Assembly (NCBI GenBank): GCA_029948255.1
Contig: JALIZF010001711.1
Coordinates: 248,001-312,000 of the forward strand
DNA: 64,000 nt
Direction: 5' to 3'
Source of the DNA: Telmatactis stephensoni
Taxonomy: Eukaryota > Cnidaria > Anthozoa > Actiniaria > Isophelliidae
In this document: piece by piece, positions 4,731 through 63,848 of the stretch
Layout of the letters: the number at the start of each line of letters is the position of its first letter
Numbering within the stretch: position 1 is the first letter of the stretch
Position numbers and translations under genes: made by a program
The notes under the pieces: model-generated
What the model was told of the DNA's origin: nothing
Seen by the model: the letters and a program-made list of their open reading frames with translations, nothing else
Databases searched by the model: none

Positions 4731-5800
4731 ATCCTCGCAGGATTCCTGTAGTGGACCTTGGTTTTGCTGTAAGTGCAGCCTCCTCCAACAAAGCCAAAAC
4801 TCTAAAACACATGAAAGACATAATCAAGAGTGTTGTGACACGTTATGGCACTAATCGCATTCATTACGCCTTGATGACGTTTGATGACGACGCAAACGTC
4901 AAAATATCGTTTAAAGAAAAGATTACGGACCCGTCATCACTGCTGCCATTTATTAATGTCTTACCAGAGAGCCCCGGGATGTCCTCTATAGAAAAGGCAC
5001 TAGAAGAAGGTAAGTTCATATGTGAAGTCATTTTCACTGTCAGAAATACCGGAACGGACATGTACTCTTGCGAGCTTCGTTCTATTGTTCTCACTTGGAG
5101 GCTTCTATTTTGCTTACTCCTTTCATATTTGTTTCACTGTATCATATCTTAGATGAATTTCGAAAAGTGCGTCCTCTAAAACGGTTCAACACGATTCCGA
5201 AACTCCAAAATAGCTGTGCCCGGTACTCGAAAAAGGTGCCCATAAACGAAGCACTGATTTGGAAGGAGACGTGGACATTGATACCATCCCTTGCTTTTAC
5301 CTTTTCACCTTTAATGCGCTACACTGAACTCCAGCCCCTGTAAGAGAGACACCTCTATTAGGTGGACACATTTGACTGATCCCGACCTTTCAAAATTCCT
5401 CATATTGTCTGTAACGAATTCCCCTCTAAGGTGGACACCTATCTAAGGCGGACACTAAGAACTGGTACCGAAAATGTCCGCCTTAGAGGGAGTTCACTGT
5501 ATTTATATGTTTATTTTTCAGGTAAGAAGTTATTTGATAGTGATGCTGTTCGCAGTGAGGCCAAAAAGGTTCTTGTTGTCATTACCGATGCAAGATCAAC
5601 TGGTGATGCATCGAGAGAAAAAATTGCAAAACAACAACTGCATGAAAAGGATGTGGTGTTGATATACGTTGGGGTTGGTGATGGGGTTGACCATGTCGAC
5701 CTTTCGAACAAAGCCACCTCACTAAGTCACAAGATAAACACAACCACTGATGAGGATCCTGACGATGTTGCAGATAGAATAATTGATGCTATCAATAAAG
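4731..5800 (+). CDS. VWA module 1 (2 exons)
   Basis: 186 residues from exons 4731-5009 and 5522-5800. Strand 1 reads IPVVDLGFAVSAAS. Strand 2 ends LMTFDDDAN, with three Asp where most modules have VFG. The third core strand is KKVLVVITDARS and the closing helix ends IDAINKG. The interior intron (512 bp, phase 1) splits the Gly of KALEEG-KKLF, and its 3' part is a CAGTG-type inverted-repeat element. The start uses the AG at 4729-4730 because the nearer AG at 4739-4740 breaks the phase. This is the most 5' module found. Confidence 0.85.
5320..5501. repeat. CAGTG-type terminal inverted-repeat element
   Basis: The ends pair as TACACTGAACTCC and the reverse complement of GGGAGTTCACTGTA. The inside repeats AGGTGGACAC and AGGCGGACA. 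CAGTG ends of this type are typical of small non-autonomous hAT-like elements. It sits in the interior intron of module 1 and ends 20 bp before the splice acceptor. Confidence 0.65.
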
Positions 5801-5834
5801 GTATAGTGTTTAAGAGCTATATACCTTATTAGAT

Positions 5835-6080
5835 ATTACACCCAAAACACTTGATCTGAACACTTAATTTGATTAGGTATACCAGAACAGTTGATCTGGC
5901 TTGAAACACCAGAACACTTGATCTGATCAAGTACACCATAACACTTGATCTGACCAGGTACACCAGAACACTTGATCTGTCGAGGTTCACCAGAACACTT
6001 GATCCAATCTGCGGAAACTCGAGACCATTTGATCTGATTTGCTCTGCAACTCAAGAACACCTGGTCTGATCTGAACAACT
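5835..6080. repeat. Minisatellite with CACCAGAACACTTGATCTG core
   Basis: Seven or eight imperfect units of roughly 28-33 bp, each with a core close to CACCAGAACACTTGATCTG, fill the intron between modules 1 and 2. Unit spacing and the connecting bases vary, so the array is old or mutating quickly. The repeat stays within the intron. Confidence 0.85.
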
Positions 6081-6205
6081 CATTTGATTCGATACAGACG
6101 CTCTATCTGATTTGATAACCTCACATTTGACCTGATCTGTTACGCCTAAACATATGATGAAAGTCTCGTTAAACTGTTGCTTACTAGTCTCGACTGTCAT
6201 ACTAG

Positions 6206-6763
6206 GTCCCTTAGACTTTGCTGTCGTGGATATCGGATTTGCCATCAGTTCCACATCCATAGACGCCGCCACTACCTTCAAACTCTTCAAAGATGCCATC
6301 AAATCCATAGTTACCACATACAATACCAAGAACATCAGATACGGCATTATCGTCTTTGGCTCTCAACCCTACACCGTCCTGGAGTTCGGCGAAGCCCTGC
6401 CAAGCCAGGATATTCTAACAATGAAAATTGATGCAATTCTAAGACGAACGGGATCTCCAAATCTCATCGAAGCATTGAAAACCGCCAAGCAGATGTTCGA
6501 GAAACGAGGTAGCCGTCCCCATGCGAAAAAGTTTTTGGTCCTGATCCTCGACAATCGTGCTAATCATCCTCGAAGGTTGATAGACCCAGCAGCGAAACCT
6601 CTGGAGGAGTCGGGCGTGCGTGTGATTCCTATTGCTGTTGGTTCGTATGCTTACCCGCTGCAGCTCCAGAGCACCACTCCTTTGAGGGACAACATTATCA
6701 AGGTACCCAAGACTGAGGACCCAACTATCCTTGGCGAGAAGATTATCAGTAAAGTTAAGAAGA
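6206..6763 (+). CDS. VWA module 2 (single exon)
   Basis: 186 residues in one exon. Strand 1 is VVDIGFAISSTS, strand 2 IRYGIIVFGS. The MIDAS-Thr region is RTGSPNLIEAL, and the third strand KKFLVLILDNRA keeps an Asp. The closing helix is EKIISKVKKS. The exon starts after ACTAG at 6205 and ends at a GTAAGT donor, both in phase 1. The module's complete lack of an interior intron is one of only eight such cases. Confidence 0.88.
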
Positions 6764-6944
6764 GTAAGTCACTTTATTCTTTTTTCGCAGTCATAATAAA
6801 TACAGACGAACTATCTTCATCATCATCATGGTCATCACCGTCGTTGTTCTCCCTCTCCCTCTCCACCCCTCCTCCTTATTATAATTTATGTTTGGGAATA
6901 TTTATCGATCAGTGTGAGGAAAGGTGGTCTTAATGATTTTGAAA

Positions 6945-7124
6945 TATCATCATCATCATCATCATCATCATCATCCAAACCGATTCCTTCAATGTATTGA
7001 CTACACATCTTGTGAAGGACTTGTCCATATAAGGGAATATCTGTTTGAGGAAAATTGGTCTGAAATTGTTATAATTTTGAAATGGCATCATCACCATCAT
7101 CATCATCATCATCATCATCATCGA
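6945..7124. repeat. Two CAT/ATC microsatellites
   Basis: Runs of about ten CAT units at 6946-6974 and about twelve at 7087-7122 flank 110 bp of unique sequence in the intron between modules 2 and 3. The bases just upstream of each run (TTTTGAAAT before both, TGAGGAAA.TGGTCT) are similar, so the pair looks like a local duplication of about 140 bp. Confidence 0.8.
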
Positions 7125-7156
7125 TAGCTATATAATGACCATTTCTTTTTTTACAG

Positions 7157-62499: not shown

Positions 62500-62520
62500 G
62501 TAATTTCTCGTTTAGTATTT

Positions 62521-62754
62521 GGGGGTGTTTACATAACACTAGGATCATCCTAGCACTAGGATCATCCTAGCAGGTGAATCATCCTACCTGCTATACATTT
62601 ACTGCATTCTGTTTAGTAGGATGATCCTAGTACCCAAAGTGAAGACACAAATTTCCATGTAAACAGAATATAGTAAATGTATAGCAGATAGGATGATTCG
62701 CCCAGTTGGATGATCCTAGTGCTAGGATGATCCTAGTGCCATGTAAACACTCCC
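62521..62754. repeat. Foldback element built of AGGATGATCCTAG words
   Basis: Ends GGGGGTGTTTACAT and ATGTAAACACTCCC are inverted. Inside, ACTAGGATCATCCTAGC occurs as a tandem pair near each end in opposite orientation. AAATGTATAGC and GCTATACATTT pair toward the centre. It starts 22 bp after the donor of module 40. Confidence 0.88.
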
Positions 62755-62803
62755 TAAGAACCCTAGTGGAAGAGCACTCTGGCTAGTACAATTAACGATC
62801 TTT

Positions 62804-63128
62804 TTAAAGCCCCATCTACACGACCAAATTTTCCTTGACAAGTTTTCCTACTAAAGGAAAAGTTTTTGTGAAGACGACGAAAAAGTACCATTTTTTGCTT
62901 TTCAAGTTGCCCTGTTGAAAAGCTGGCTTGCCAGCTTTTTCTTGATCAGTGAAGACGTGTCAAGGTAAAGATTTGCTTGTGTAGACTTTGACAAGTATTC
63001 CGCCTTGCAAAGTGTATTTCGGGCACAAAGAAACTTGCCAAAGAAAACTTGTTGATCCGTGTGCACGAGAAAGAAAACTTATCAATAAAGCTTGTCAAGG
63101 AAACTTACTCGTGAAGATGCGGCTTTAA
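62804..63128. repeat. Inverted-repeat element with TTTTAAAGC ends
   Basis: TTTTAAAGCCCCATCTACAC pairs with GTGAAGATGCGGCTTTAAAA (18 of 20 positions). CAAGTTTTCC and AAAACTTGTC words alternate inside in both orientations. Confidence 0.78.
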
Positions 63129-63243
63129 AATGGTTTTTGGGGACGGGTGGGTGGGTGTAGATGTTGGGGAGGGAAAGGGGTGGAGGACGGGGACATCACT
63201 TCACATCATCCGTTAGTGCGAGTCCTTCGTTAAATTCATTGTG

Positions 63244-63461
63244 AATAGTCCCATTCACAGTTGCCTGCACTATCTTGAAAGGTAGCGTGCCTTTGTTGCA
63301 TCGAAGGAAGACAAACGGTGAGCCTGCAATGAGAGGGACCTGTGAATAATTGTCCTAGGCGTTTAAAAAGGTATCTATCATTCCAAGCTCTCCGTTCATC
63401 TCGCTTCGATGCAAAGGCACGGCTACCTTTCAAGATGGCGCAGAACTGTGAAGGGGACTAC
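63244..63461. repeat. Inverted-repeat element
   Basis: AATAGTCCCATTCACAGTT pairs with AACTGTGAAGGGGACTA, and CTTGAAAGGTAGCGTGCCTT pairs with AAGGCACGGCTACCTTTCAAG. It is the third such element in the 1,159-bp intron between modules 40 and 41. Confidence 0.82.
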
Positions 63462-63658
63462 TGCGAATTTAAAATCCATCTGGTTTTATTGTTTTAGTGA
63501 CTTTGAGTTTGTCCCACAATTCCTTTAGAACTAGTCATTCAATATTGAAAACTGACGGTATTTTGTTGGAAAATCTTTGTCACCTTTATTTAACGTTAAC
63601 ATCTCTTTTTGAGGTAGTTTTGTTCTCGTATTAAATTTCTTTATTCTCTTTTTTCTAG

Positions 63659-63848
63659 ACAATCCCAATATTCCAGTCACTGACCTTGCCTTTGCCATTA
63701 GTGCTACCGCGATTGATTCAACTCGTAGATTCCAGGAGATGAAGGATATAGTTAATAATGTCATCGATACGTTTGGTCGGGGTAGGGTACGATACAGTTA
63801 CTTAACCTATGCTACACGACCAACTGTACATCTAAGATTCAGAGACAG
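63659..63848 (+). CDS. VWA module 41, first exon (cut by window edge)
   Basis: 63 residues. Strand 1 is IPVTDLAFAISATA, helix MKDIVNNVIDTFG, strand 2 VRYSYLTYAT. The exon ends in phase 2 within the Arg of LRFRDR at a GTAAAT donor, close to the site used in module 30. The second exon must lie beyond position 64000. The remaining 150 bases hold nothing recognisable. Confidence 0.85.

Follow-up and report, generated by a model that had tools for sequence, protein, structure and literature searches.

Metal-site-less VWA modules in a long unbroken run on a contig of the sea anemone Telmatactis stephensoni

We describe a run of von Willebrand factor A (VWA) modules that have lost the metal site for which the fold is known. 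The window, a stretch of 64,000 nucleotides (positions 248,001 to 312,000 of contig JALIZF010001711.1), carries on its plus strand, from 4731 to 63848, 40 complete modules and the first exon of a 41st in our splice model. With the flanking DNA included, the unbroken run consists of 47 modules of the same type and 8,725 residues, and would be, to our knowledge, the longest known. The earlier note on this DNA had called the number of modules unusual, and this agrees with the literature searched (subscription journals mostly fall outside it), where no longer VWA run is described. On balance, we read the window as the central part of an extracellular-matrix gene of very large size, in which the VWA run probably serves as a metal-independent spacer or scaffold. 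The modules are listed below in window coordinates; those of more than one exon, up to module 40, were recognized by profile match and splicing.

4731..5800 (exons 4731-5009, 5522-5800), +, VWA module 1
6206..6763 (one exon), +, VWA module 2; profile match, PF00092 6.8e-16
7157..8085 (exons 7157-7428, 7794-8085), +, VWA module 3
8539..9571 (exons 8539-8870, 9340-9571), +, VWA module 4
10171..10945 (exons 10171-10586, 10804-10945), +, VWA module 5
11460..12897 (exons 11460-11705, 12586-12897), +, VWA module 6
13559..14439 (exons 13559-13890, 14208-14439), +, VWA module 7
14845..15656 (exons 14845-15260, 15515-15656), +, VWA module 8
16206..17534 (exons 16206-16570, 17345-17534), +, VWA module 9
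17940..19376 (exons 17940-18318, 19195-19376), +, VWA module 10
19473..20697 (exons 19473-19695, 20360-20697), +, VWA module 11
21184..21741 (one exon), +, VWA module 12; PF00092 5.5e-16, AlphaFold model made
22050..22607 (one exon), +, VWA module 13; PF00092 2.8e-20
23179..24120 (exons 23179-23535, 23923-24120), +, VWA module 14
24691..25251 (one exon), +, VWA module 15; PF00092 1.9e-18
25791..26600 (exons 25791-26151, 26395-26600), +, VWA module 16
26845..27648 (exons 26845-27130, 27368-27648), +, VWA module 17
28106..28669 (one exon), +, VWA module 18; profile match
28884..30199 (exons 28884-29056, 29812-30199), +, VWA module 19
30698..31343 (exons 30698-31076, 31156-31343), +, VWA module 20
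31768..32748 (exons 31768-32051, 32490-32748), +, VWA module 21
33158..33712 (one exon), +, VWA module 22; PF00092 1.4e-13
34582..35594 (exons 34582-34908, 35379-35594), +, VWA module 23
36300..37289 (exons 36300-36598, 37028-37289), +, VWA module 24
37526..40765 (exons 37526-37883, 40566-40765), +, VWA module 25
41174..42288 (exons 41174-41499, 42057-42288), +, VWA module 26
42894..43737 (exons 42894-43253, 43537-43737), +, VWA module 27
44023..44580 (one exon), +, VWA module 28; PF00092 3.9e-18
44886..45863 (exons 44886-45150, 45574-45863), +, VWA module 29
46344..48278 (exons 46344-46542, 47917-48278), +, VWA module 30
49062..49928 (exons 49062-49422, 49735-49928), +, VWA module 31
51001..51825 (exons 51001-51385, 51659-51825), +, VWA module 32
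52263..53543 (exons 52263-52537, 53261-53543), +, VWA module 33
53924..54744 (exons 53924-54336, 54603-54744), +, VWA module 34
55031..56078 (exons 55031-55208, 55318-55486, 55874-56078), +, VWA module 35
56507..57058 (one exon), +, VWA module 36; PF00092 8.6e-19
57554..58346 (exons 57554-57879, 58115-58346), +, VWA module 37
59192..60061 (exons 59192-59511, 59830-60061), +, VWA module 38
60350..61085 (exons 60350-60723, 60914-61085), +, VWA module 39
61448..62499 (exons 61448-61620, 62121-62499), +, VWA module 40
63659..63848, +, VWA module 41, exon 1 of 3 (exons 2-3 outside the window, contig 313908-314098 and 314699-314875)

The splice model imposes GT-AG introns, and phase 1 at the module borders. 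With the phase left free, phase 1 still gives the best-scoring acceptor for 40 of the 41 window modules and the best donor for 39 of 40. The spliced window array, i.e. the 40 complete modules and the first exon of module 41, reads through 7,497 residues with 0 stops; an unspliced one-frame reading of a 24-kb part meets 419 stops in 8,000 codons. Splicing returns the figures given in the earlier note, 181-189 residues for each module and 7,434 in the complete ones, and bears out its claim of in-frame joining by introns. A module profile built from 8 seed modules matches 74 plus-strand stretches (4739 to 63849) and just one on the minus strand, at E 0.45, so the modules do share one strand. Their pairwise identity is 20-50% (median 35%), and since it is at most 50%, the array is no assembly stutter. 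The count of 41 needs amending: of the last module only the first exon, which ends at 63848, lies inside the window, and 'at least 41' rises to 47 in the unbroken run and to 63 modules of this type over 334 kb of contig. Likewise, it is correct that there is no other domain inside the window, but outside it the same strand carries Kazal, GON, laminin-G, EGF and further VWA modules. Rfam and tRNA scans gave no matches.

All 39 exons compared are retained in the second haplotype, and pN/pS between the haplotypes is 0.135 for modules 21-40, a comparison that covers 20 of the 41 window modules and in which modules 21 and 32-40 are identical. The compared modules are therefore under purifying selection. 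It is very improbable that the array consists of decaying or untranscribed duplicated exons. LINE remnants and simple repeats in the introns would fit such decay, but the low pN/pS and the 0 stops in 11,682 codons speak against it. In the intron of module 25 lie the remnant of a LINE and a TTA array absent from the other haplotype.

The Pfam VWA family (PF00092) scores above its cut-off of 23.8 bits in all seven complete window modules scanned (51.8-73.7 bits), and matches at E<=0.01 in 20/20 members of set A1 (eight complete modules and 12 single exons); modules without a Pfam scan match the module profile. An AlphaFold model of one module, module 12, has the VWA (Rossmann-like) fold, so that both lines of evidence agree with the fold first proposed.

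The canonical ligands of the metal ion-dependent adhesion site (MIDAS) are DxSxS ... T ... D. In columns located by alignment to canonical domains, DxSxS is found in 0/41 window modules and the Thr in 0/40, while the last Asp is kept in 40/40; across all modules of this type in the 334 kb of contig examined, the first Asp and the Thr are each found in 0/63. As a control, the first Asp is kept in 3/3 domains of a scallop protein (P0002) and 6/7 of a fish collagen VI (P0004), counts that leave out weaker profile matches with E above 1e-9 (one and five, respectively). The 63 modules also contain almost no cysteine. Because the MIDAS Asp and Thr and nearly all cysteine are gone from every copy, classical metal-dependent adhesion by the array is unlikely. 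Of the structural, adhesive or matrix role suggested earlier, adhesion in the usual sense is thus weakened and a matrix role may still apply. The run would act as a long spacer or scaffold, and, as is said of the collagen VI alpha3 N-modules and vWF A3, its modules may use surfaces away from the metal site to bind their neighbours. A fold known for metal-dependent adhesion would here have become, in every copy, a building block free of metal and nearly free of cysteine. With more than 60 sister domains, the locus offers a natural set in which to learn which residues are required by a block of this kind.

We examined flanking DNA to a total of 334 kb of contig. The 63 modules of the same type found there are the 47 of the unbroken run and 16 upstream (U01-U16), a block that ends at contig 220.2 kb. 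On the 3′ side of the 47-module run, the plus strand continues with Kazal, GON, laminin-G and EGF modules and then a last VWA module with a stop codon. The first Kazal exon after module 47 is at contig 323.5 kb. A Kazal profile made from 16 copies of the same locus finds 39 Kazal-type stretches, some partial, 34 of them at 323.5-358.3 kb, and Pfam Kazal matches in 5/5 stretches scanned. Laminin-G matches at 2e-11, with a second piece below the cut-off (0.0033), and EGF at 3.1e-7 and 2.9e-5. This last VWA module with its stop codon may be the true 3′ end of the gene; at the 5′ end, a strict hydrophobicity cut finds no signal-peptide exon between contig 124.7 and 445.9 kb. Over the whole 334 kb, the plus strand has two such exons under this cut, at 124.6 and 445.9 kb; the minus strand, taken as a control, has two as well.

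U16 and module 1 are separated by a 32-kb gap. That the locus holds two or three adjoining genes from a single family is a real possibility, if short of an even chance: the first would end with U16, the next begin at module 1, and a separate Kazal/laminin-G gene might lie at the 3′ side. Six GPCR-like frames of a single exon lie in the gap, distributed over the two strands, whereas border introns between window modules are all under 1.2 kb, and the upstream stretch has Kazal and divergent VWA modules of its own. Furthermore, once the hydrophobicity cut is relaxed, the gap offers eight ATG positions from which a signal-peptide exon could start; of four that were located, three lie within plus-strand GPCR frames and one opposite a minus-strand GPCR frame. 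Against such a division, the gap has no signal-peptide exon at the strict cut, a phase-1 donor at U16 and a phase-1 acceptor at module 1 are both readable, and upstream and window modules are intermixed in a quick, weakly supported tree. As a tentative extension of the matrix-gene reading, we propose a secreted protein of titin scale from a gene of ~242 kb. It would run from the signal-peptide exon at contig 124,622 through VWA, Kazal and GON modules, 16 + 47 MIDAS-less VWA modules and about 30 Kazal modules to an agrin-like laminin-G/EGF end, with its stop at ~366.6 kb; GPCR genes would be nested in its introns, and nearly every module would have gained one internal intron after duplication.

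Relatives of the array were sought in three protein searches, which spanned about 307-977, 2,452-7,801 and 4,400-14,000 aa; the first two scored only those candidates with the most words in common, 7,993 and 1,504 of them. Among the scored candidates, the only two proteins with modules of the same type come from Exaiptasia (21 modules) and Oculina (3). The third, a one-module query in an 8,000-residue read-through reference, gave 0/370 candidates at E<=1e-3, and as it also missed P0003, which was in range and had come up in the second search, its silence is no evidence against longer relatives. P0003 is an uncharacterized protein of Exaiptasia diaphana (LOC110236767, 5,035 aa) whose 21 MIDAS-less VWA modules have about the same pitch as those here and about 26% identity to them. 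A tree places them in three copies of a seven-module block. It differs from our array in that the blocks are parted by other modules (precomputed Pfam names F5/8C and EGF), in a hydrophobic segment at ~4664 and a Gly-rich tail, and in a module number half or less of that here. The domain set of this relative suggests that the Telmatactis product acts outside the cell. Against the matrix-gene reading, the sequon shortage is not clear in the relatives (28 against 34.5 in P0003; 9 against 5.2 in the Oculina protein, P0001).

P0001, a coadhesin-like protein of the stony coral Oculina patagonica, also has MIDAS-less VWA modules of this type but, unlike the locus, only three, with a TSP1-like motif and F5/8C. 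The available part of PMC4890752 describes a skeletal protein of A. digitifera with three VWA, TSP-1 and two F5/8C domains. A motif search found no TSP1 motif in the 334 kb, and a five-sequence profile found F5/8C-like stretches only on the minus strand beyond 394 kb (weak or split copies could escape either search); we do not regard the locus as a coadhesin. Nor is it a collagen VI, lacking both Gly-X-Y runs (none of eight GXY in any frame within the 334 kb) and the C-terminal extension of that family. Collagen VI alpha3 has ten N-terminal VWA modules, against 47 here. The extension is N1206-G1224, about 19 residues, and puts the module ends on opposite sides, according to the part of PMC3919171 available. 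The aligned core of collagen VI N5 (1022-1205) corresponds to residues 4-186 of the module 12 model and matches the module pitch of 181-189; this leaves no room for a 19-residue extension, so a straight rod should not be assumed.

On the 3′ side of the VWA modules, the long Kazal run with laminin-G and EGF modules after it resembles agrin, and this end of the protein may be an agrin-like anchoring part. Red-coral skeleton holds agrin-like proteins with FOLN/Kazal runs, and the domain key in the available part of PMC7853314 shows them without VWA. Because agrin as presented there has no place for a VWA run, we have not filed the locus as agrin. Many VWA modules, as in our array, also occur in a matrix protein of cnidarians described in PMC12549020, where VWA is combined with WAP.

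Modules with a phase-1 intron on either side would have been duplicated again and again to build the run, at its 5′ end probably as a four-module block. The modules are nearly all symmetric 1-1, so that skipping a whole module keeps the frame, and the locus could be a cassette array that yields many shorter proteins, differing in the modules they contain, instead of one giant. We consider this unlikely: 32 of the 40 complete modules carry internal introns (17 in phase 0, 5 in phase 1, 11 in phase 2), and skipping one would mostly need two exons to be skipped jointly. Among all 63 modules, 53 internal introns occupy 34 sites, and the most similar modules seldom share a site. In the window, 0/25 pairs do so (pairs of the 40 most similar with an intron in both), or 1/25 with a tolerance of two columns and any phase. 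The result is weaker for all 63 modules, where 3/39 pairs among the 60 most similar share a site; all three use the commonest one, which is found in 12 modules and may be ancestral. Dozens of exons homologous to one another within one gene, together with two haplotypes, would allow intron gain after duplication to be counted. The introns follow AG in 31/33 cases, a figure partly built in because the donor score favours AG. They are not copies of one mobile element, as an all-against-all comparison gives short matches only, many of them repeat-like. A similar intron pattern is described for molluscan haemocyanin genes in the available part of PMC7931591, with phase-1 introns between repeated units and internal introns whose places are not conserved and some of which recur at proto-splice sites, although the protein is unrelated and has about 8 units, against 47-63 here.

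When the flanking DNA of contig C233 was searched (positions 118,001-452,000, 334 kb around the window), module 41 was completed downstream of the window and found to be followed by modules 42-47, ending at 322,690. The unbroken run thus comprises 47 VWA modules and 8,725 residues (the sum of the module lengths). A further 16 modules of the same type (U01-U16) lie upstream, bringing the total of this one VWA type in window and flanks to 63 modules and 11,682 residues, with no stop codons. The earlier note described a gene made of VWA modules and nothing else. This is borne out within the window, but not for the locus, as Kazal, GON, laminin-G and EGF modules occur outside the window.

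Modules of the locus outside the 47-module run (contig C233 positions; profile match values in brackets)
188-195 kb: Kazal and divergent VWA modules, preceding the 16 upstream modules
196.5-220.2 kb: U01-U16, 16 same-type VWA modules upstream of the window
323.5 kb: Kazal module, the first module 3' of the run
324.2 kb: weaker VWA (6e-7)
325.8 kb: VWA (1.8e-17), then three Kazal stretches
329.4 kb: VWA (5.3e-8)
331 kb: GON domain (1.9e-36)
332.6 kb: VWA (2.6e-27)
After the 332.6-kb VWA, up to 358.3 kb: Kazal array (Kazal profile)
359.6-364.6 kb: laminin-G and EGF pieces
366.1 kb: last VWA (5.8e-25), with a stop codon after it

Two of the divergent upstream pieces were compared with Pfam; one is a VWA (6.7e-19) and the other has no match. 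The Kazal profile finds 39 stretches in the locus, 34 of them at 323.5-358.3 kb. Full-length stretches also number 34 of the 39, and with the phase left free these have a phase-1 donor in all 34 cases and a phase-1 acceptor in 32, the other two being without a candidate. Just 3' of the giant locus, at 368-376 kb, is a tandem family of four similar + strand frames (299-366 aa, flanking pieces L009-L010) that have a hydrophobic start and share the motif R-[DH]-E-D-I-[ND]-W.

Because its border introns are short, we predict with good confidence that the 47-module run is one gene; the run may also be joined to the upstream and 3' modules. Phase 1 is possible at both edges of the 32-kb gap, for the donor of U16 and for the acceptor of module 1. 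Within this gap, the two strands together hold six single-exon frames that are GPCR-like (225-249 kb, in flanking pieces L001-L003 and the start of the window), among which the Pfam 7tm_1 assignment covers the window's own frame alone. Across the 334 kb, a strict search for signal-peptide exons (phase 1, with an ATG, a hydrophobic start and AG before GT-purine) gave two on the + strand, at 124,622 and 445,863, and likewise two on the - strand, which served as a control. A looser cut gave eight ATG positions in the 32-kb gap as candidate signal-peptide starts. The exon at 124,622 resembles, by eye, a genuine signal peptide and lies 0.4 kb 5' of a VWA exon. This would fit a single gene at 124.6-366.6 kb. 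However, the search is insensitive to other kinds of start, and the span also includes a secreted-protein-like - strand frame, transposon-like frames and the GPCR frames. The window's own GPCR frame is of the rhodopsin type (window 578-1297 to about 1500; PF00001, 1.4e-23) and looks like a broken copy: it has a stop roughly two thirds of the way through the profile, past which a TM6-like stretch (by eye) follows in the frame before a LINE is reached. A LINE-like remnant (window 1535-2716) has in its first frame a weak match to a PHD-like zinc finger (E 0.02) and, at window 1808, the sequence DIEINPGP, which we take to be a 2A-like motif.

A second haplotype of the locus is found on contig C361 of the same assembly. 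In the 30 kb compared, none of the 39 exons between exon 2 of module 20 and module 40, both included, is missing. Across modules 21-40 the splice dinucleotides are all intact, there are no stops and no module changes length; of the differences, 56 leave the residue unchanged (synonymous) and 26 are nonsynonymous (pS 0.0225, pN 0.0030, ratio 0.135). Noncoding divergence is 0.0375 over 7,834 aligned bases (window 33,158-49,928). Modules 21 and 32-40 are identical, so the signal stems from modules 22-31. We read this pattern as purifying selection on the protein sequence of the modules compared. The module 25 intron contains an insertion (window 38341-40546) with a TTA array and the remnant of a LINE (zf-RVT 2e-8); the other haplotype lacks both, and this insertion is therefore polymorphic.

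The MIDAS motif is responsible for metal binding in integrin I domains. Its first Asp is absent from all 41 window modules and its Thr from 40/40, and both are absent from all 63 modules overall; the last Asp is retained throughout (40/40 and 63/63). The first Asp is also absent from 3/3 modules of the coadhesin-like Oculina patagonica protein P0001 and 21/21 of the Exaiptasia diaphana protein P0003, and is retained in 6/7 fish collagen VI and 3/3 scallop control modules, weaker profile matches in these two control proteins having been excluded beforehand. In a tree, 64 MIDAS-less modules split from 10 canonical ones with support 100/100. The 11,682 residues include just seven cysteines, and N-glycosylation sequons in the window set number 14 against 35.6 +- 5.5 expected, a shortage that is not clear in the relatives. 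Proline occurs among the first eight residues of 40/41 modules. At 181-189 residues, the module pitch is that of the VWA core by itself, so an extension like that of collagen VI would have no space. Most collagen VI VWA domains are described as being without a conserved MIDAS (PMC3919171). By analogy, we infer that the modules form a metal-independent spacer or scaffold, which may be a rod or a zigzag.

Internal introns are spread evenly over the 40 complete window modules: eight have none, 31 have one and one has two, and no random placement in 20,000 was as even. The 33 window introns occupy 25 sites, and AG precedes 31 of them, although the donor score used favours AG; in all 63 modules together, 34 sites account for 53 introns. 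When the window modules are paired, 25 of the 40 most similar pairs have introns in both members, none at a common site. In the wider set of 63 modules, 39 of the 60 most similar pairs have introns in both members, and 3 of these 39 share a site, always the same one, which is used by 12 modules and may be ancestral. Read most simply, these data place most internal introns after duplication, at about one per long exon. This kind of pattern has a precedent in haemocyanin genes, which are likewise described as having two classes of introns (PMC7931591). The modules at window 4731-62499 offer a homologous exon set for counting intron gain after duplication.

Modules 1-12 have identity maxima at offsets 4 and 8 (0.401 and 0.402); one of 5,000 permutations was as high at offset 4, which was selected after inspection of the tree. 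The tree groups modules 1/5/9 (support 85/95) and 2/6/10 (99/99), and these groups and peaks together argue for a copied four-module block. Same-type modules were found, in the length ranges searched, in two proteins only, one Oculina and one Exaiptasia (26-29% identity), which suggests an anthozoan source that lacks close protein records in these ranges. The latter protein, P0003 (LOC110236767), is unnamed and 5,035 residues long; its tail is rich in Gly, its Pfam list names F5/8C and EGF, and in the tree it shows a seven-module block in three copies. One clade takes in 37/40 window modules, with modules 1/5/9 outside, and the expansions therefore look largely independent as judged from these trees. 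In a wider quick tree the upstream and window modules are intermixed, with weak forks (48/84).

VWA domains are reported among those common to the skeletal proteomes of four corals (PMC11959691), and one coral VWA domain is reported to slow carbonate precipitation in vitro (PMC12662967), a result that we do not extend to this gene. The Telmatactis stephensoni genome has further large VWA clusters, with at least 44 matches on contig C23 and at least 34 on contig C466. At C23:372395-389754 (- strand), at least 16 matches with nearly equal scores, mostly about 909 bases or double that apart, seemingly form a young tandem array. The C466 cluster (24163-154424, - strand, at least 34 matches) scores above 86 bits with Pfam, against 52-74 bits for the window modules tested, and its modules perhaps have an intact MIDAS.
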